A model generated the notes under the pieces. That model did not search any database and had not been told where the DNA came from. It saw nothing but the letters and a program-made list of their open reading frames with translations. Below, piece by piece: positions 16,162-24,728 of a stretch of 64,000 bases of DNA. Source of the DNA: Microthrixaceae bacterium (lineage in GTDB: Bacteria; Actinomycetota; Acidimicrobiia; Acidimicrobiales; Microtrichaceae); the NCBI GenBank assembly GCA_023957975.1, contig JAMLGM010000001.1, positions 372,001 through 436,000 of the forward strand, given 5' to 3'. Both the position numbers and the translations under genes were made by a program. Each line of letters starts with the position of its first letter. The stretch's first letter is position 1.

Positions 16162-16254
16162 GGCGTTAGGGCGAAGCGGGTTCACATCGGCTTGTCCATC
16201 GGGCGTGCCCACTCGCCTGAACGGCTGCATTGGCCCACCGCCGCCGGCTGGGCG

Positions 16255-16260
16255 TAACTT
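16255..16260 (+). promoter_or_regulatory. -10 box of a leaderless promoter for ctaB
   Basis: TAACTT lies 8 nt before the GTG at 16269 and 5 nt before the preceding GTG at 16266. The spacing favours 16269 as both transcription and translation start. Confidence 0.5.
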
Positions 16261-16268
16261 GGGCCGTG

Positions 16269-17180
16269 GTGTCTTCCACGATCGTGTCATCCACCCCGTC
16301 CACGTCGCCGGGAATCGTCACGAAGCTCGGCGGCTACGTCGCGCTCACGAAGCCGCGCATCATCGAACTCCTGCTCATCAGCACCGTACCGACGATGTTC
16401 GTCGCTCAGCGTGGGGTTCCCGGCATCTGGCTGATGATCGCGACCGTCGTCGGTGGGACGTTGTCGGCTGGCGGTGCGAACGCCATCAACATGTACGTTG
16501 ACCGCGACATCGATGCGTTGATGAGCCGCACGAAGAACCGCCCCTTAGTGACCGGAATCATCGCGCCGCGCAATGCGCTCGTGTTCGCGGTGGGCCTTGA
16601 GGTGGTGGCCTTCTTCTTCCTCTGGATCACGGTCAACCTGCTGTCGGCAGCGCTGGCCGTGGCCGCCTGCCTGTTCTATGTGTTCATCTACACCCTTTGG
16701 TTGAAGCGGTCCTCGGAACACAACATCGTGATCGGCGGGGCCGCCGGCGCGGTGCCTGTCTTAATCGGCTGGGCGGCGGTCACCAACGAAATCACGTTGG
16801 CGCCGATCGTGTTGTTCGCCTTCATGTTCTTCTGGACCCCACCGCATTTCTGGGCCCTTGCGATCAAGTACAAGGACGATTACTCAAAGGCAGCGGTACC
16901 GATGTTGCCGTCGGTGGCGAACTACGACACCGTGACGCGAAAGATCCTGAATTACACATTCTTGGTCGTGGTGTTCAGCCTGCTCTTCGCGGTGACCGCC
17001 GATCTCGGCGTCATCTACTGGACTGCAGCGACGGTGCTCGGAGCGCTGTTCATCTGGCTGGCGGTACGAGTCCGACGCACCGAGTCGCCGGCGATCGCCA
17101 TGAAGCTGTTCACCTACAGCATCACCTATGTCACCGTGCTGTTCGGCGCCATGGCGATCGATGTCCTGGTGGGAGGCTGA
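16269..17180 (+). CDS. ctaB: Protoheme IX farnesyltransferase
   Basis: 303 aa UbiA-superfamily membrane enzyme that farnesylates heme B to heme O, feeding CtaA. The first prenyl-diphosphate binding motif is NMYVDRDIDALMSRTKNRPL near residues 76-95. The second loop carries YKDDYSKAAVPMLP. Nine or so hydrophobic helices are visible. An in-frame ATG at 16230 would lengthen the protein but lies upstream of the TAACTT box, so I chose GTG 16269. It leads into the oxidase structural genes after 168 nt. In that gap I see a TACCGT at 17278 as a possible internal promoter. Confidence 0.92.
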   Translation: MSSTIVSSTPSTSPGIVTKLGGYVALTKPRIIELLLISTVPTMFVAQRGVPGIWLMIATVVGGTLSAGGANAINMYVDRDIDALMSRTKNRPLVTGIIAPRNALVFAVGLEVVAFFFLWITVNLLSAALAVAACLFYVFIYTLWLKRSSEHNIVIGGAAGAVPVLIGWAAVTNEITLAPIVLFAFMFFWTPPHFWALAIKYKDDYSKAAVPMLPSVANYDTVTRKILNYTFLVVVFSLLFAVTADLGVIYWTAATVLGALFIWLAVRVRRTESPAIAMKLFTYSITYVTVLFGAMAIDVLVGG

Positions 17181-17348: not shown

Positions 17349-18905
17349 ATGGCACTGACCGAGACCCGACCCGAAACCGCTGTGTCCCCAGTCGTCGCCT
17401 CCGGCGGCGTGGAGCCGCGAACCACCCCGACCGCCGTGGAACGCGTGCTGGGATCGGGTGATCACGCTGTGGTCGGACGCATCCTGATCGGTGCGTCATT
17501 GCTGTTCCTTGCGATCGGCCTCGTCATCACAGCACTGTCCAACCTTCACCTCGCAGCGGGTGACTTCCTTGAAGAGAGCGTCGGGCAGCGGTTCGCTTTG
17601 GCCCACCCGCTGTTGCTGCTCTTCTGTGGAGTGCTGCCGCTTGTGCTCGGCCTCGCCTTTTCGATCGTGCCTCGGCAGTTGGGGGCGTCGACGCTGCTGT
17701 TTCCTCGTGCCGCTGCGATGTCTCTGTGGGGCTGGCTGTTCGGTGCGGTGCTCTTCTTGGTCTCGGTGTTTGCAAAGGGCTCCTATGGCGGAAGCAGCCT
17801 CGAGATGGTCCGTATGGGCCACGTTGCGATTGGGCTGATCGCCGTCTCATTGTTGGTCGGCATGGTGTCGGTCATGACCACGATCATGAGTGCCCGACCG
17901 GCCGGACTCGGAATCGCGCGAATCCCGTTCACCTCTTTCGCCTACCTGGTCACGGGGGCGCTCTGGCTCGTCACGATCCCACCCTTCCTCGCCCAGATCG
18001 TCCTGTGGCACATTCGCCAGCCGAACGTCATCGACCTCACGAACTCCGCGTACCCGCAACTCACCTGGATCTTCTTGCAGCCGGCGCTCTACATCGCCGC
18101 GATTCCGTTGCTCGGTTTCCTGGCCGACTCGGTCGCTACTGCGGCCGGAACACGTCAGGGCGGATACGGCGCCATGCAGGCGCTGATCGTCGGCTTCGGC
18201 GTGTTCTCCTTCGGAGCGTGGGCACAGACGGAGGTGTCCCGCGACAATTTGGTCTGGATCGCCACGTCGGTCCTCGTCGCCGTTCCGGTGCTCGGCGCGC
18301 TCGGTGCATCCCTCAATACGTTGCGGCGTGGCAACAAGCCGGTCGCCACCGCCGGGTTGGTTGCAGCGTTGCTCGCGACGTTGACGCTGTTGTTGGCCAT
18401 CGCCGCCGGGGCGGTGCAAGGAATTGCGACCGCCGGGGACGGCGAATTGTTCGATCTCGCACGGGGAGACTTTGCGACCTCGTCGCCGGGAATCTCGACC
18501 GGTCAGTTCTATCTGGTGATCGGGGCGGTCGTCGTCGGTGGCCTCGGAGCGTTGTTCGGATGGGGTAGTCGGATCGTCGACGGTGGCCTGCCGAAGGGCG
18601 CTGGTTTGGGGTTGGTTCCGCTGGCCGCTCTCGGAGCATTGGTGATGGGCCTCGGCGCCGCGATCATCGGGCTGACCAACGCCGGCGATATCGGTGCCTT
18701 GGCGACGGTTTCTGGGATCGGTGCGTTGATTCTCGGGGTCACCACCTTGGCCGCCTTGGCTGCACTCGGTGCAGCTGCGACCGGGCGGGCAGGCGACAAC
18801 GACGACCTCGTCGGCGGCACGCTTGAGTGGTTCGACGGCGCTGAGTTGCCGGCGATCGAAAGTGAGTATCCGGTGCTCGATCTGAACGAAAAGGGAGCGA
18901 ACTGA
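17349..18905 (+). CDS. Heme-copper oxidase subunit I paralog lacking metal ligands
   Basis: 518 aa, about 12 hydrophobic segments. It can be aligned by eye with CtaD (21583). AHPLLLLF near residue 86 matches the helix II segment MHGVTMVF and keeps its heme ligand histidine, followed by a matching PRQLGASTLLFPRAAAMSLW. The copper-B motif GHPEVY reads LQPALY (Gln244), the next HH pair in WAHHM reads WAQTE (Gln293, Thr294), and helix X HFHYVL reads GQFYLV (385-390). So copper B and heme a3 cannot bind as in an oxidase. The frame is intact and the gene is coupled (TGATG) to a subunit III paralog, so it is not a decayed pseudogene. GAGG 6 nt before the ATG sets the start. Role unknown; partner or assembly scaffold of the oxidase is inference. 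Confidence 0.8.
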   Translation: MALTETRPETAVSPVVASGGVEPRTTPTAVERVLGSGDHAVVGRILIGASLLFLAIGLVITALSNLHLAAGDFLEESVGQRFALAHPLLLLFCGVLPLVLGLAFSIVPRQLGASTLLFPRAAAMSLWGWLFGAVLFLVSVFAKGSYGGSSLEMVRMGHVAIGLIAVSLLVGMVSVMTTIMSARPAGLGIARIPFTSFAYLVTGALWLVTIPPFLAQIVLWHIRQPNVIDLTNSAYPQLTWIFLQPALYIAAIPLLGFLADSVATAAGTRQGGYGAMQALIVGFGVFSFGAWAQTEVSRDNLVWIATSVLVAVPVLGALGASLNTLRRGNKPVATAGLVAALLATLTLLLAIAAGAVQGIATAGDGELFDLARGDFATSSPGISTGQFYLVIGAVVVGGLGALFGWGSRIVDGGLPKGAGLGLVPLAALGALVMGLGAAIIGLTNAGDIGALATVSGIGALILGVTTLAALAALGAAATGRAGDNDDLVGGTLEWFDGAELPAIESEYPVLDLNEKGAN

Positions 18906-19483
18906 TGTCGATCATCCCGGCAGAAATTCCGGCAGCGGTGTTGCCGCGCCGGAGACAACTGCTCTTCGGCACGGTCTTCGTTTCGATTGCCGTCGCGATG
19001 TATCAGCTCGCGCTTGTGGGGCTCTACCTCCAGGAGCGCTCCGCTCGGTCGAATGTGTGGTTCGCCGAGCACACGATCCCGCTGACGCAGCCGAACATGC
19101 AGCTCAGCGCCCTCGGGCTGAGCGTGGTCTTTGTGCAGTGGGCCGTGTGGGCGATCGCACGCAACCAACGTGGGCAGGCCTACTTTGCGCTCGGCTGCAC
19201 GTTGCTCATGGGGTTCGCGTTTCTGAACCAGACCACCTTCCTGTGGACTGAGATCGGGCTGCCGATGACCAACGTCGAAGGTCCGCTGTTCTATGCGGTG
19301 ACCGCGAGCCACTTCGCGATCATCGTGGCCGCCATGGTGTTTTTGCTGGTGACGGCCTTTCGGACCCTCGCCGGTTCCAATTCCGCGGAACATCCTGAAG
19401 GCGTGTCGGCGGCGGCACTCTTCTGGCATGTTTCGGTCGCTCTCTACACGGTGGTCTGGCTCGCCGTGTACATCATGAAGTAG
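18905..19483 (+). CDS. Cytochrome oxidase subunit III paralog
   Basis: 192 aa with five or more hydrophobic segments and the subunit III layout. The central FALGCTLLMGFAFLN, then an ASHFAIIVAAMVFLL segment parallel to the GFHGAHVTIGILML of CtaE (23639), and a C-terminal FWHVSVALYTVVWLAVYIMK parallel to the CtaE end YWHFVDVVWILVFTIVYLIK. It shares one base with the stop of the subunit I paralog, implying the two are made as a pair. Lower conservation than CtaE at the N-terminus. A specific function cannot be stated. Confidence 0.78.
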   Translation: MSIIPAEIPAAVLPRRRQLLFGTVFVSIAVAMYQLALVGLYLQERSARSNVWFAEHTIPLTQPNMQLSALGLSVVFVQWAVWAIARNQRGQAYFALGCTLLMGFAFLNQTTFLWTEIGLPMTNVEGPLFYAVTASHFAIIVAAMVFLLVTAFRTLAGSNSAEHPEGVSAAALFWHVSVALYTVVWLAVYIMK

Positions 19484-19495
19484 CCGGAGTCGAAC

Positions 19496-20368
19496 ATGAT
19501 CACACGTGCTTCCAGAGTCTTCTTCGCCCTCGGTTTAGCGGCCTATTTCGCGGCCATCCTGTACGGCGTCATCACCAACGGCATCAATTCGGGTGGTGTC
19601 GTCGACACCCTCACCGGTGATGGCGTGGTGAACGCGTTGGTCGGACCGATCAGCTTCGGCTACAAGGGCGGGGTCGGTGAACACGTCGGCTACACCCTGT
19701 TCATGGCCGCAGCAGTCAGTTCGTTCTTTGCCGCTGGGGCATGCCTGGCCTTCCGCGACGGCGACGCCGAGGCCATCGCTCAGCTTGCTGGCACCGACAC
19801 GGCTCCCCCCGTCGTCGCCCCCGGCGATCTCAGCCCGTGGCCGATCGTGGCCGCGGGTGGCGCTGCCGTTGCGGTGATCGGCTTGGCTTCCAACCCGTTG
19901 CTGTTCGCAATCGGCTGCGTGGTCATCGGAATTGCCGGCGTCGAGTGGATCGTGAAGGACTGGTCCGAACGGGTGTCATCGGATCCGCAGATCAACGCCG
20001 TGGCCCGTGCCCGGCTCGCGCACCCCGTCGAATTGCCCGTCGGGGGCCTGCTGGTCATGGCGGTCCTGATCGGATCCTTCGCGAAGATTCTGCTCTCGTC
20101 GACCAAGACCGAAGCGATCATCGTGGCATCGATCATCGCGGCGCTGATCTTCGCGGTAGCGGTGATCATCGGAACTCGCCCGCAGATGCGCCGTACTGCG
20201 GTGGTCACCTCGGTCATCGTCGGATTTCTCGTGGTGATTGTGTTGGGTCTGATCGGAGCGATCCGCGGCGACTCGCCGGTTGAGCACCACGACAGCGGCG
20301 ACCATGCATCGGCCGTCGCGACGGATTACCGGTTGGCCTCTGCCTTGGGAGAGACTGAAGCATCATGA
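19496..20368 (+). CDS. Unknown membrane protein in the oxidase operon
   Basis: 290 aa that I do not recognise as a named family. An N-terminal transmembrane helix (FFALGLAAYFAAILYGVI) is followed by a Gly-rich loop, a second helix near residue 75, and a soluble stretch with TAPPVVAPGD. Two close helices lie around 118-150, then a loop with about 20 charged residues, and three more hydrophobic segments lie between 180 and 255. The tail is His/Asp-rich (EHHDSGDHAS). It sits 12 nt behind the subunit III paralog and overlaps ctaC by ATGA. Position suggests an extra oxidase subunit or assembly factor. Confidence 0.7.
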   Translation: MITRASRVFFALGLAAYFAAILYGVITNGINSGGVVDTLTGDGVVNALVGPISFGYKGGVGEHVGYTLFMAAAVSSFFAAGACLAFRDGDAEAIAQLAGTDTAPPVVAPGDLSPWPIVAAGGAAVAVIGLASNPLLFAIGCVVIGIAGVEWIVKDWSERVSSDPQINAVARARLAHPVELPVGGLLVMAVLIGSFAKILLSSTKTEAIIVASIIAALIFAVAVIIGTRPQMRRTAVVTSVIVGFLVVIVLGLIGAIRGDSPVEHHDSGDHASAVATDYRLASALGETEAS

Positions 20369-21573
20369 TTGAGCGAATGACGAAGCCCCACCGACTTTCG
20401 AGGTTGGTGTCGGTCAGCGCTATCACCTCCGCGGCGTTGTTCCTGTCGAGCTGCGGATACGTGCGCGACAGCGAGAATCACCCGCTCACCACGCTCGACC
20501 CCAAGGGGCCTCAGGCGCAGATGATCGACGATCTCTCGACGCCGGTCTTCGCGGTGGCGGGGGTCGTGTTTGTCCTGATCCAGGCACTCATGATCTACCT
20601 GATCGTGCGCTACCGCCGTCGCCCCGACGATGTCGACGGCGTCGACGAGCCCACTCAGATCCACGGCATGGACCGGCTCGAATGGGCGTGGACCATCACT
20701 CCCGCGGTCATCCTCGCCGGCCTCGCGATTCTCAACGTCCAGACGATCTGGAAGATGGAAGAACGCAACGATCCGAACATGATCACGGTGGAAATCATCG
20801 GTCAGCAGTGGTGGTGGGAGTACCGCTACGACTTCGATGCCGATGGGTCCGTCGACGTCATCACCGCCAACCAGATGGTGATTCCCGAGGACACGCTGGT
20901 CGATTTGCACATCCGGTCCAACGACGTGATCCACTCGTTCTGGATCCCGGCGCTCAACGGAAAGCGCGACGCCGTTCCTGGCCGCACGAACCGCTGGCTG
21001 TTGCAGGCCGACGACCCCGGCCTCTACGAGGGGACCTGCACCGAGTTCTGCGGTCTGAGCCACGCGTATATGCGCATGGAGGTCAAGGCACTCGATTCAG
21101 CGGATTGGGAGCAGTGGAAATCCGACCAGCTCGAACCCGCGAACATCCCTGCCGATCCCACGCCGGATGACGATTCCGACGATGACGCGGTGCTCACCGG
21201 CTACAAGACGTTCATCGCCAACTGTGCGTCGTGTCATCAGCTCAACGGCGTCGACGCAGGCGGCGAGGAGACCGACGGCACCCCGGATGCGGACTATCGC
21301 GGTGAGGATCATCCACTGACGGCGGGCAATGCCCCGAACCTCACCCACCTGATGAGCCGTAATCGCTATGCGGGCAACCTGTTTTCGCTGTGGACCACCG
21401 ATAGCGACGGCAACTACACCGACCAGGTCGACACGTCGACCCTCGGCGACTGGTTGCGCGATCCCGGGGCGCTGAAGCCGATGGCAGCCGACGCGAACCG
21501 CGGCATGCCGAACCTGCAACTGTCCGAAGATCAGATCTCGTCGCTGGTCGCGTTCCTGTCGACGCTCAAGTAG
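20365..21573 (+). CDS. ctaC: Cytochrome c oxidase subunit II with fused cytochrome c domain (caa3 type)
   Basis: 402 aa. A lipoprotein-like signal ends in LSSC (Cys30), followed by two transmembrane helices (about 55-80 and 105-130). The cupredoxin domain then carries the dinuclear CuA ligands: His in VIHSFW and the cluster C-T-E-F-C-G-L-S-H-A-Y-M at about 225-236. QQWWWEYRY near 150 is the aromatic electron-entry patch. An acidic linker (PTPDDDSDDD) leads to a class I cytochrome c domain with CASCH at 287-291 and a GMPNL methionine ligand near the end. The fusion means electrons can enter without a separate soluble cytochrome c. Confidence 0.95.
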   Translation: MIERMTKPHRLSRLVSVSAITSAALFLSSCGYVRDSENHPLTTLDPKGPQAQMIDDLSTPVFAVAGVVFVLIQALMIYLIVRYRRRPDDVDGVDEPTQIHGMDRLEWAWTITPAVILAGLAILNVQTIWKMEERNDPNMITVEIIGQQWWWEYRYDFDADGSVDVITANQMVIPEDTLVDLHIRSNDVIHSFWIPALNGKRDAVPGRTNRWLLQADDPGLYEGTCTEFCGLSHAYMRMEVKALDSADWEQWKSDQLEPANIPADPTPDDDSDDDAVLTGYKTFIANCASCHQLNGVDAGGEETDGTPDADYRGEDHPLTAGNAPNLTHLMSRNRYAGNLFSLWTTDSDGNYTDQVDTSTLGDWLRDPGALKPMAADANRGMPNLQLSEDQISSLVAFLSTLK

Positions 21574-21582
21574 GAGACCGAT

Positions 21583-23646
21583 ATGGCAATCATTGAAGCT
21601 CCGGCGCCGGTGGCTCTCGAATCGGGTCAGCCAGCCGCACGCCCCCTGGGCATTTTCGCCCGACCGACCTCCGCGCAAACCGGTTGGAAGTCGTGGCTCA
21701 CGTCGGTCGATCACAAGCGCATCGGCATCATGTACGGCATGGCCTCGATGTTCTTCTTTGTCATCGGTGGCAGCGAAGCCTTGTTGATCCGGCTTCAACT
21801 CGCCCGACCGAACCAGGCGTTGTTGAGTGCTGACCTGTACAACCAGGTGTACACGATGCATGGCGTCACGATGGTGTTCCTCGTGGTCATGCCACTCGCC
21901 GCAGCGTTTGCGAACTACCTCCTGCCACTGCAGATCGGCGCCCGGGATGTGTCCTTCCCGCGAATGAACGCGCTGTCGTTCTGGCTCTACTTCTTTGGTG
22001 GCCTGTTCCTGAATTCGTCGTGGTTCCTCGGCGGAGGCGCCGACGGTGGCTGGTTCAACTACGCACCGAACTCGGGTGTGCTGTTCAGCACCAGCCACGG
22101 CATCGACTTCTACGTCTTTGGTTTGATCATCACCGGTATCGCCTCGCTGGTGTCGTCGATCAACCTCATCGTGACGGTGATCAACCTGCGTGCACCGGGC
22201 ATGACGTGGTTCAAGCTTCCGTTGTTCACGTGGATGACGTTGGTGACGCAGTTCCTGTTGCTGTTCTCGCTGCCGGTGATCACGGTGGCGTTGTTCCTGC
22301 TGATGTTCGACCGCACGTTCGGCGCCACCTTCTTCGATGTCGCCCTGGGCGGCGATCCGATGTTGTGGCAGCACCTGTTCTGGATCTTCGGACACCCCGA
22401 GGTCTACATCATGGTCATGCCGGCCTTCGGCATCGTGTCGGAGATCATCCCGGTGTTCTCCCGCAAGCCGCTCTTCGGCTACTCGTTCATGGTGTTTTCC
22501 GGCATCGCCATCGGGTTCATGGGGTTCGGCGTGTGGGCCCACCACATGTTCGCCTCCGGAATGGGTCCGATGTCGGTGATGGCGTTCTCGCTGTCGACGA
22601 TGTTCATCGCCGTGCCGACCGGCGTGAAGATACTGAACTGGGTTGCCACCATGTATGGGGGCCGGCTCCGGTTCACGGCCGCGATGATGTTCGCGATGGG
22701 GTTGGTGTCGATGTTCACCATCGGCGGCCTCTCGGGTGTGACGCACGCCTTCGCCCCGGCCGACACCCAGCAGACCGACACCTACTACATCGTGGCCCAC
22801 TTCCACTACGTGCTGTTCGGCGGCGCGCTGCTCGGATTCTTCGGCGCCATGTATTTCTGGTGGCCGAAGATCTTCGGCCACTTCCTCGACGAGCGCATGG
22901 GTAAAGCCCATTTCTGGATGACGCTGGTCGGGTTCAACCTGACCTTCGGCCCGATGCACATCCTCGGCCTCCAAGGCATGAGCCGTCGCTATTTCACCTA
23001 CAGCGACGGCTACGGGTTCAACTTCTGGAACCTGGTCGCGACGATCGGTGCGTTCATGATCGCCATCGGCCTCGTGCAGTTCCTCGTCAACTGCTGGGTG
23101 TCCTATCGCAAGTGGAAGCGCGAGCCATACGATCCGGGAGCCGACCCGTGGGATTCCCGCAGCTTGGAGTGGATCACTCCTTCGCCGACCCCTGAGTACA
23201 ACTTCTCGGAGACCCCGGTCGTCCACGAGCTCGATGATTTCTGGCATCGCAAGTACGGTCACGACGAGCAGGGTCGAATGGTCCGCATCGCCGAGACCGA
23301 CGACATCGTGCAGAAGCGTGTGTCGGGCGACGACATCCATCTGCCCTCTCCGTCGTATTGGCCGATCGTGCTTTCCGCCGGTCTGCCGTTCATCGCCTAC
23401 GGCCTGATCTTCAGCTATTGGTGGCTGATTCTCGGCGCTGGTCTGACGGTTGCCGGTATCGCCGGATGGATCGTCGAGCCGTCGACTGATCCCGATGCGG
23501 GACACGATCATCACGACGCTCACGACGACGGCGACGACGATCATGGTGAAGCCATCACCGCCACCGATGTTGCCGGTGAGCTTGAGACCGTAGGCGCCGG
23601 CGTTGCCGGTGGCGCCGCTGCCAGCGAGGAGAACGCAGGTGAGTGA
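21583..23646 (+). CDS. ctaD: Cytochrome c oxidase subunit I
   Basis: 687 aa catalytic subunit that reduces O2 and pumps protons. All metal ligands are present: helix II MHGVTM, GHPEVYI (CuB His and cross-linked Tyr), WAHHMF (two CuB His), and AHFHYVLFG (heme a3 and heme a His). The Y-I-V-A-H segment and the proton-path GHPE are normal for A-type oxidases. After the core, residues ~520-640 include two additional hydrophobic segments. An acidic, His-rich tail (GHDHHDAHDDGDDDHGE) follows. It overlaps ctaE by 8 nt. Confidence 0.97.
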   Translation: MAIIEAPAPVALESGQPAARPLGIFARPTSAQTGWKSWLTSVDHKRIGIMYGMASMFFFVIGGSEALLIRLQLARPNQALLSADLYNQVYTMHGVTMVFLVVMPLAAAFANYLLPLQIGARDVSFPRMNALSFWLYFFGGLFLNSSWFLGGGADGGWFNYAPNSGVLFSTSHGIDFYVFGLIITGIASLVSSINLIVTVINLRAPGMTWFKLPLFTWMTLVTQFLLLFSLPVITVALFLLMFDRTFGATFFDVALGGDPMLWQHLFWIFGHPEVYIMVMPAFGIVSEIIPVFSRKPLFGYSFMVFSGIAIGFMGFGVWAHHMFASGMGPMSVMAFSLSTMFIAVPTGVKILNWVATMYGGRLRFTAAMMFAMGLVSMFTIGGLSGVTHAFAPADTQQTDTYYIVAHFHYVLFGGALLGFFGAMYFWWPKIFGHFLDERMGKAHFWMTLVGFNLTFGPMHILGLQGMSRRYFTYSDGYGFNFWNLVATIGAFMIAIGLVQFLVNCWVSYRKWKREPYDPGADPWDSRSLEWITPSPTPEYNFSETPVVHELDDFWHRKYGHDEQGRMVRIAETDDIVQKRVSGDDIHLPSPSYWPIVLSAGLPFIAYGLIFSYWWLILGAGLTVAGIAGWIVEPSTDPDAGHDHHDAHDDGDDDHGEAITATDVAGELETVGAGVAGGAAASEENAGE

Positions 23647-24289
23647 AGCACTGACCATGCCCGTCGCGGCGGTGGACGATCACGGCCACCCGCCGACCAA
23701 TACCGGGATCTCGAATGAGAAGCTGGGCATGTGGGTGTTCCTGGGATCGGAATGCCTGATGTTCGGTGGCCTCATCTCCACCTACTTCCTCTACAAGAAC
23801 CGTCCCGGCTCCATCGTGTCGGTTCGCGGCCGGGAGATCACAGGAAGCGACATCCGCCCGTCAGACCTGTTCGCCAACGGGTTCACGTCGGTCACTTCGT
23901 TCATCTTGTTGGCGTCCTCGCTGACGATGGTCTTCGCCGTCGCCGCCGCGAAGCGCAACGAGATGGCTCGCATGCGCTACTGGCTCGGCACGACCGCAGT
24001 GCTCGGCTCGCTGTTCATCGGCGGCCAGGTGTACGAGTTCACGACCTTCGTCCGAGAGGGCATGGGGTACACCTCGAACGTTGCGGCTTCAGCGTTCTAC
24101 ACCCTCACCGGCTTTCACGGTGCCCACGTCACGATCGGCATCTTGATGTTGCTGATCACGATCGCCATGTCCGCTCGAGGCCGGATTCCGCATGCGAAGG
24201 CCGAGGCGGTGGAAATCGTCGGGCTGTACTGGCACTTCGTCGACGTGGTGTGGATTCTCGTGTTCACCATCGTCTACCTGATCAAGTAA
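23639..24289 (+). CDS. ctaE: Cytochrome c oxidase subunit III
   Basis: 216 aa membrane protein of the oxidase core. Motifs include KLGMWVFLGSECLMFGGL, FTSVTSFILLASS, LTGFHGAHVTIGI (conserved Glu/His region) and the C-terminal YWHFVDVVWI. Start chosen at GTG 23639, inside the end of ctaD, because GAGGAG lies about 8 nt upstream and the resulting N-terminus is of usual length. An in-frame ATG 12 codons earlier would only extend into ctaD. ctaF follows 10 nt later. Confidence 0.95.
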   Translation: MSEALTMPVAAVDDHGHPPTNTGISNEKLGMWVFLGSECLMFGGLISTYFLYKNRPGSIVSVRGREITGSDIRPSDLFANGFTSVTSFILLASSLTMVFAVAAAKRNEMARMRYWLGTTAVLGSLFIGGQVYEFTTFVREGMGYTSNVAASAFYTLTGFHGAHVTIGILMLLITIAMSARGRIPHAKAEAVEIVGLYWHFVDVVWILVFTIVYLIK

Positions 24290-24299
24290 GCGAGGACGT

Positions 24300-24728
24300 A
24301 TGTCTGCAGTTGGCGCAACACACGCCCATCACGATGACCACGCCGACCACGGCGACGGCCTGTATTGGAAGACCTTCGTCGCGTTGGCGATTCTGACCGC
24401 CGTTGAGGTTTCGACCGAATGGTGGCCCGAGGGGCTCGGTTGGATCACGACCGCAGCGCTGATCGTCATGATGACGATCAAGTTCATTCTCGTGGCGCAG
24501 ATCTTCATGCACCTCCGTGACGATCACAATCTGCTCGGGCAGCTCTTCTATTTCGGGGCGATCCTCGCTATTGCGGTGTTCATGGGCGTGTTCGGCTCGA
24601 TGCGAATCTTCGAGAAGTCCGGCCTCGGTGGTGAGTTCACCTTCAACGATCCAACGATGCAGCGGCCCCTGCCCCCGCCTCCGACCGATCCGCCGCCGAT
24701 CATCCGCGAGACCACCGGCGGTCACTGA
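24300..24728 (+). CDS. ctaF: Cytochrome c oxidase subunit IV family protein
   Basis: 142 aa. A His/Asp-rich N-terminus (HAHHDDHADHGDG) precedes three transmembrane helices: TFVALAILTAVEVST, AALIVMMTIKFILVAQIFMHL and FYFGAILAIAVFMGVFGS. The KFILVAQIFMHLRD segment is the mark of the prokaryotic COX4/CyoD-like small subunit. A proline-rich C-terminus (RPLPPPPTDPPP) follows. It is the last gene of the oxidase operon, just before a strong hairpin. Confidence 0.88.
   Translation: MSAVGATHAHHDDHADHGDGLYWKTFVALAILTAVEVSTEWWPEGLGWITTAALIVMMTIKFILVAQIFMHLRDDHNLLGQLFYFGAILAIAVFMGVFGSMRIFEKSGLGGEFTFNDPTMQRPLPPPPTDPPPIIRETTGGH

Follow-up and report, generated by a model that had tools for sequence, protein, structure and literature searches.

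Organization of the oxidase locus

A complete caa3-type oxidase operon (ctaC-D-E-F), the four genes of which are all normal, is encoded in the window, i.e. the whole stretch of 64,000 nucleotides of a Microthrixaceae bacterium that was analysed (GCA_023957975.1, contig JAMLGM010000001.1, positions 372,001 to 436,000). Between ctaB and this operon lies a module of three genes (17349-20368), namely a subunit I paralog (pCtaD), a subunit III paralog (pCtaE) and a membrane protein (P3) (Table 1). The stop codon of pCtaD and the start codon of pCtaE overlap in the sequence TGATG, P3 starts 12 bp past pCtaE, and the end of P3 overlaps ctaC by 4 bp. The initial annotation had described a TGATG-coupled pair of subunit I- and subunit III-like proteins ahead of the caa3 operon. 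Both open reading frames and their coupling are exact, but the third gene was overlooked, and the locus therefore carries a I'-III'-IV'-TM module rather than a pair. The gene order ctaA(-) / ctaB-pCtaD-pCtaE-P3-ctaC-ctaD-ctaE-ctaF is recurrent across the Acidimicrobiales.

Table 1. Genes of the module and of its surroundings, and codons at the former ligand positions of pCtaD
Feature	Coordinates	Strand	Description	Basis
ctaA	15157..16149	-	heme A synthase, divergent neighbour	order kept in most module loci
ctaB	16230..17180	+	heme O synthase, immediately upstream of pCtaD	homology between loci, conserved order
pCtaD (P0001)	17349..18905	+	subunit I paralog devoid of metal ligands; 518 aa with 12 predicted TM helices	PF00115, AlphaFold2 model, Foldseek
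H86 codon	17604..17606	+	helix II heme a ligand position, kept without its partner	
Q244 codon	18078..18080	+	helix VI CuB His position	
Q293-T294 codons	18225..18230	+	helix VII CuB His-His position	
G385-Q386-F387 codons	18501..18509	+	helix X heme a3 / heme a His-x-His position	
pCtaE (P0002)	18905..19483	+	COX subunit III paralog, 192 aa	PF00510, E 1.6e-9; orthologs in 134 loci
P3 (P0003)	19496..20368	+	membrane protein, 290 aa, subunit IV-like N-half and TM C-half	hhalign
ctaC	20365..21573	+	subunit II, CuA and cytochrome c domains	domain/family searches
ctaD	21583..23646	+	active subunit I, full ligand set and fused subunit IV domain	
ctaE	23657..24289	+	active subunit III	
ctaF	24300..24728	+	COX4_pro small subunit	

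The subunit IV domain fused to the C-terminus of the active CtaD (PF12270) is present besides the separate COX4_pro gene. The CtaA protein has an asparagine (N68, in the motif EFVNR) in place of the first heme-ligand histidine of heme A synthases. An asparagine at this position is common to most CtaA proteins examined in the order, and H60N-type CtaA has been listed for Acidimicrobiaceae (PMC8239418). A link between the module and Asn-type CtaA was rejected, since the asparagine is also found in most genomes of the order that lack the module.

Subunit I and subunit III paralogs

The sole Pfam match of pCtaD is COX1 (PF00115, E 2.9e-25, cut-off passed); the protein scores far too low for any functional subunit I model (TIGR02891: 111 bits for a cut-off of 671) and shares 22% identity over its full length with the window's own CtaD. 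Similarly, pCtaE matches COX3 (PF00510) with 38.5 bits for a cut-off of 23.8, lies far under the cut-offs of the functional subunit III families and shares 30% identity with the window's CtaE. A CtaM (DUF420) identity was also considered for this second protein and rejected: PF04238 scores 18.1 bits, below the cut-off of 30.5, and the genuine CtaE also matches this family weakly. An AlphaFold2 model of pCtaD, computed from 46 aligned orthologs, reached a pLDDT of 88.9 and a pTM of 0.92. Its best PDB matches by Foldseek are mycobacterial and corynebacterial aa3 subunits I (TM about 0.80), and it groups with aa3 and bo3 subunits I. The subunit I fold that had been read from the 518-aa protein thus holds, and an unrelated transporter fold is ruled out by the Pfam match, the model and the Foldseek comparison.

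The alignment confirmed the ligand substitutions reported at the outset (GHPEVY to LQPALY, WAHHM to WAQTE and HFHYVL to GQFYLV), and the histidine reported in helix II is H86. The window's pCtaD contains five histidines in all (39, 67, 86, 158, 221); the proximal histidine of heme a3 and the bis-histidine pair of heme a are missing, and H86 alone is left. No histidine occurs near the helix X ligand position in this protein, the alignment of helix X in the most diverged members being uncertain by one residue.

The third protein of the module

P3 has no Pfam match above the cut-off, PF12270 included, and its homology is seen by profile-profile comparison only. Its N-terminal half corresponds to actinobacterial subunit IV (hhalign 97.3%, E 2.1e-11), and its C-terminal half to the membrane part of an actinobacterial TM-cupredoxin protein of ~215 aa (hhalign 99.8%, E 8.7e-28). 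This type-1-copper protein is encoded beside ctaC-D-E-F-ctaG in other actinobacterial classes, and its homology with P3 is therefore a further link of the module to caa3. The P3 of the window ends before the cupredoxin domain, while in basal P3 proteins the cupredoxin is still there, together with the ligand residues His, Cys, His and Met. The P3 model reached a pLDDT of 79.6 and a pTM of 0.55, and a Foldseek search of this model against the PDB gave no significant match.

In several of the actinobacterial caa3 operons (L117-L127, L133), this protein, a type-1-copper cupredoxin anchored in the membrane, is encoded after ctaG. In four module loci (L074, L077, L079, L081), the C-terminal domain of P3 looks like a cupredoxin and is devoid of copper ligands; that of L074 has no Pfam match.

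Distribution and co-occurrence with caa3

Among the 148 Acidimicrobiales genomes, 97 have a strong P3 match (E below 1e-20) and 90 a caa3-type ctaD, four truncated genes counted in. The overlap, counted from the two match lists, shows that P3 is carried by 89 of the 90 genomes with a caa3 ctaD. In the single caa3 genome without P3 (G025), a contig ends inside ctaC and the upstream region is unseen. The tie between the module and ctaC-D-E-F, which the initial annotation had proposed to check across the class, is thereby supported within the order; co-occurrence and operon linkage with caa3, as expected of a supernumerary subunit or assembly factor, are both found.

Eight genomes have P3 and no caa3 ctaD, and in most of these the operon is split or cut by a contig end (e.g. 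L225, L226, L231, L232, L235). G024 (locus L051) is the real candidate exception: pCtaD and pCtaE are intact, P3 is truncated and the caa3 operon (ctaC-F downstream) is missing. Its assembly, in 430 contigs, is 6% contaminated, and it is possible either that caa3 was lost with the module left behind or that the assembly is in error. Some 50 genomes (~50) carry neither P3 nor a caa3 ctaD, and mostly have an aa3-type ctaD instead. In other orders of the class, caa3 operons occur without the module (L127, L128). The best 80 matches in a species-level genome collection were mostly labelled as Acidimicrobiia or as unspecified actinobacteria, with a few evident mislabels; a genome-contig scan with P0001 as sole query gave no match. 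A replacement of CtaG by the module was ruled out, CtaG being present in 139 of the 148 genomes.

Stepwise loss of the cofactor ligands

Few known proteins are as constrained as subunit I of cytochrome oxidase. Among 124 distinct pCtaD sequences, none has the CuB histidine triad, and a single histidine at one of its three positions is found in four; the K-channel lysine is absent from all and the D-channel aspartate is present in one. The heme a histidine pair is complete in 15/124. Three basal groups keep it, namely the L080-like (10/10), L076-like (4/4) and L069-like (3/3) groups, and the copper ligands of the cupredoxin are kept in 14/14 genomes checked of the L080-like (10/10) and L076-like groups. 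In the L080-like clade, the heme a3 histidine is also present in 8/10 and an arginine occupies the helix VI CuB position in 10/10 (GRPEVY-type). With these residues and a P3 cupredoxin that has its copper ligands, the members of this clade (L080, L082, L085, L086, L089, L219-L223) could possibly form a redox-active CuB-less complex. Most later lineages, including that of the window, have lost both the heme a pair and the cupredoxin.

On the tree, one or two changes are found per CuB ligand position and four to seven for the heme histidines, which indicates that CuB was lost at the base of the module and that the ligands of heme and copper disappeared later, on several occasions. Histidines in shifted positions in homologs had been named as an observation that would speak against inactivity. 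Some homologs do hold ligands: the basal ones keep those of heme a, at the normal positions, so that the module became redox-dead stepwise. Simple counts strongly associate retention of the heme pair with that of the cupredoxin (Fisher 1.5e-7); this association finds no support in phylogenetically independent pairs and was therefore treated as shared ancestry.

Selection, descent and remaining constraint

The module has long open frames in the 135 loci examined and is retained over tens of families. The dN/dS ratio of pCtaD is 0.045-0.165 in close pairs, which shows purifying selection, and that of CtaD is 0.009-0.059 in the pairs with a value. Pseudogene decay is ruled out by the open frames and by these ratios, in agreement with the earlier view of inactive paralogs that are not decaying.

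All pCtaD sequences form one clade, parted by a branch with 100/100 support from every active sequence, of caa3 as well as aa3 type. The caa3 ctaD was therefore rejected as the source of pCtaD by recent tandem duplication. From this phylogeny, pCtaD may derive either from an aa3-like oxidase or from a common stem. The pCtaD and CtaD trees have 28 of 47 splits in common (0.2 expected by chance), with a Mantel r of 0.79 (0/2000 permutations), and pCtaD distances are about 2.2 times the CtaD distances, i.e. pCtaD evolves faster.

The hemes, CuB and the docking site of subunit II lie towards the periplasmic side in established oxidase structures. Oxidase-invariant positions, scored as kept when present in at least 80% of pCtaD and assigned to a side from the predicted helices, are kept at 22/53 on the cytoplasmic side (42%), at 8/26 in the mid-membrane region and at 5/56 on the periplasmic side (9%). 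The surviving motifs include the N-terminal D-H, loop II-III (PxQxGA..FPRAA), loop IV-V and the C-tail (TLEWxxxSPPPxxNF), and the conserved pCtaD positions are nearly all inherited from the oxidase and not new.

Proposed function of the module

The best explanation, in which we have moderate confidence, is that the module encodes a redox-inactive I'-III'-IV' complex that serves the caa3 oxidase as an accessory subcomplex, as a scaffold or as an assembly factor. Indeed, the module tracks the caa3 operon, keeps the fold and the cytoplasmic face and drops the cofactor sites, and is therefore best read as a structural partner. Furthermore, since heme a and the cupredoxin were lost in most lineages, the retained role cannot need redox cofactors. 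pCtaD, pCtaE and P3, made from the caa3 operon, would assemble into a redox-inactive mock oxidase core, which would bind CtaC, CtaD, CtaE and CtaF in the membrane, either as a permanent supernumerary subcomplex or as a dedicated assembly or stability scaffold. The contact site would be on the cytoplasmic side, at loops II-III and IV-V and the C-tail, and the mock core would thereby affect caa3 assembly or stability. Part of the conservation of the cytoplasmic face could come from folding and not from an interface. The ancestor would have been a CuB-less subunit I that still held heme a and the subunit IV of which was fused to a type-1-copper cupredoxin, and most lineages would later have lost both. 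A counter-point to a partnership with caa3 is provided by the caa3 operons of other orders that have no module, which is thus not intrinsically needed for caa3. Among the roles initially put forward (assembly scaffold, heme chaperone, structural subunit), a scaffold or structural partner fits best, physical association being presumed; a heme chaperone is unlikely in the case of the window's protein, as several lineages have lost the heme histidine pair and kept the protein. Basal members may still have such a role. Similarly, a cofactor-loading or electron-relay role is possible in basal lineages and excluded for the window's protein.

A more elaborate version of the structural-partner reading, rather unlikely as a whole, is a hetero-oligomeric oxidase in which the active caa3 core would be permanently joined to the mock core. 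The latter would have begun CuB-less with heme a and type-1 copper (and, in one clade, possibly with a five-coordinate heme a3 and an arginine for CuB) and would have served to load cofactors, to relay electrons or to sense gas, before it became purely structural in most lineages. Alternatively, the fold could have been put to a new use, in the transport of ions, protons or solutes or in the binding of a lipid or quinone, with only transcription in common with caa3. Many pseudoenzymes take on unrelated roles, and G024 keeps the pCtaD and pCtaE genes in the absence of a caa3 operon; nevertheless, the tight co-occurrence and co-inheritance with caa3, the loss of K- and D-channel residues and the oxidase ancestry of nearly all conserved pCtaD positions make such an independent membrane function unlikely. 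The position of the module next to ctaB and ctaA, the low-spin heme histidine pair of three basal groups and the copper-ligand cupredoxin of two would suit a loading station, in which the mock subunit I would hold heme A from the ctaB and ctaA products and the cupredoxin would hold copper, for delivery to CtaD. This proposal is quite doubtful, given that most lineages, including that of the window, no longer have the pair or the cupredoxin, with the proteins still under selection, and that CtaG is still widespread in the order.

The ligand set of the L080-like clade is also compatible with a redox-active CuB-less relay or gas-binding complex, in which electrons would pass from type-1 copper to heme a, possibly with a five-coordinate heme a3 by the arginine at the CuB position. 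However, this is inapplicable to the window's protein, which has H86 alone of these features, and is very unlikely as an account of the module. Finally, a second oxidase in slow decay, held by operon polarity and devoid of a function of its own, would be in line with the successive disappearance of the ligands for CuB, heme and copper and with the faster evolution of pCtaD, but it is highly improbable in view of the long open frames, dN/dS values well below 1, conserved cytoplasmic motifs and retention across tens of families.

Significance and comparison with known systems

An order-wide ligand-free I-III-IV set beside a working enzyme, with lineages at several stages of cofactor loss, makes it possible to ask what role the oxidase fold has without redox chemistry, and provides a bacterial system for studying oxidase assembly or supercomplex architecture. 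Since the module proteins pass the generic COX1 and COX3 cut-offs, domain-based annotation of Acidimicrobiia genomes and metagenomes can count inactive copies as oxidases. No description of the module was found in the open-access literature, to which the search was confined. Its parts belong to known families, and the conserved redox-dead set with a graded series of losses appears to be undescribed.

A second subunit I (FoxA') is present in the fox clusters of Sulfolobales. Compared with A-family subunits I (CtaD/COX1, PF00115), pCtaD has the same 12-TM fold, an N-terminal DHK-type motif, the loop II-III P.Q.GA..FPR and the C-tail TLEW..SPPP, but it lacks the CuB ligands, the helix X histidines and the K- and D-channel residues and forms a separate clade. 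pCtaE resembles subunit III (CtaE/COX3, PF00510) in passing the Pfam cut-off and in directly following a subunit I paralog, but remains far beneath the functional family cut-offs. The N-terminal half of P3 is similar to subunit IV (PF12270), and P3 follows subunit III, as subunit IV does in an aa3 operon of another class (L130), but it falls below the Pfam cut-off and has an additional C-terminal membrane half. This C-terminal half is homologous to the TM-cupredoxin protein (PF13473 / PF00127) encoded downstream of ctaCDEF-ctaG, the copper ligands of which are kept in basal P3, but here it is fused to a subunit IV-like half and, in the window, has no cupredoxin domain. The AdoMetDC prozyme of trypanosomes (PMC5201418) is likewise an inactive paralog kept with an active relative, which it partners; the likeness is one of analogy only, as here a whole membrane subcomplex is concerned and its interaction with the active enzyme is putative.
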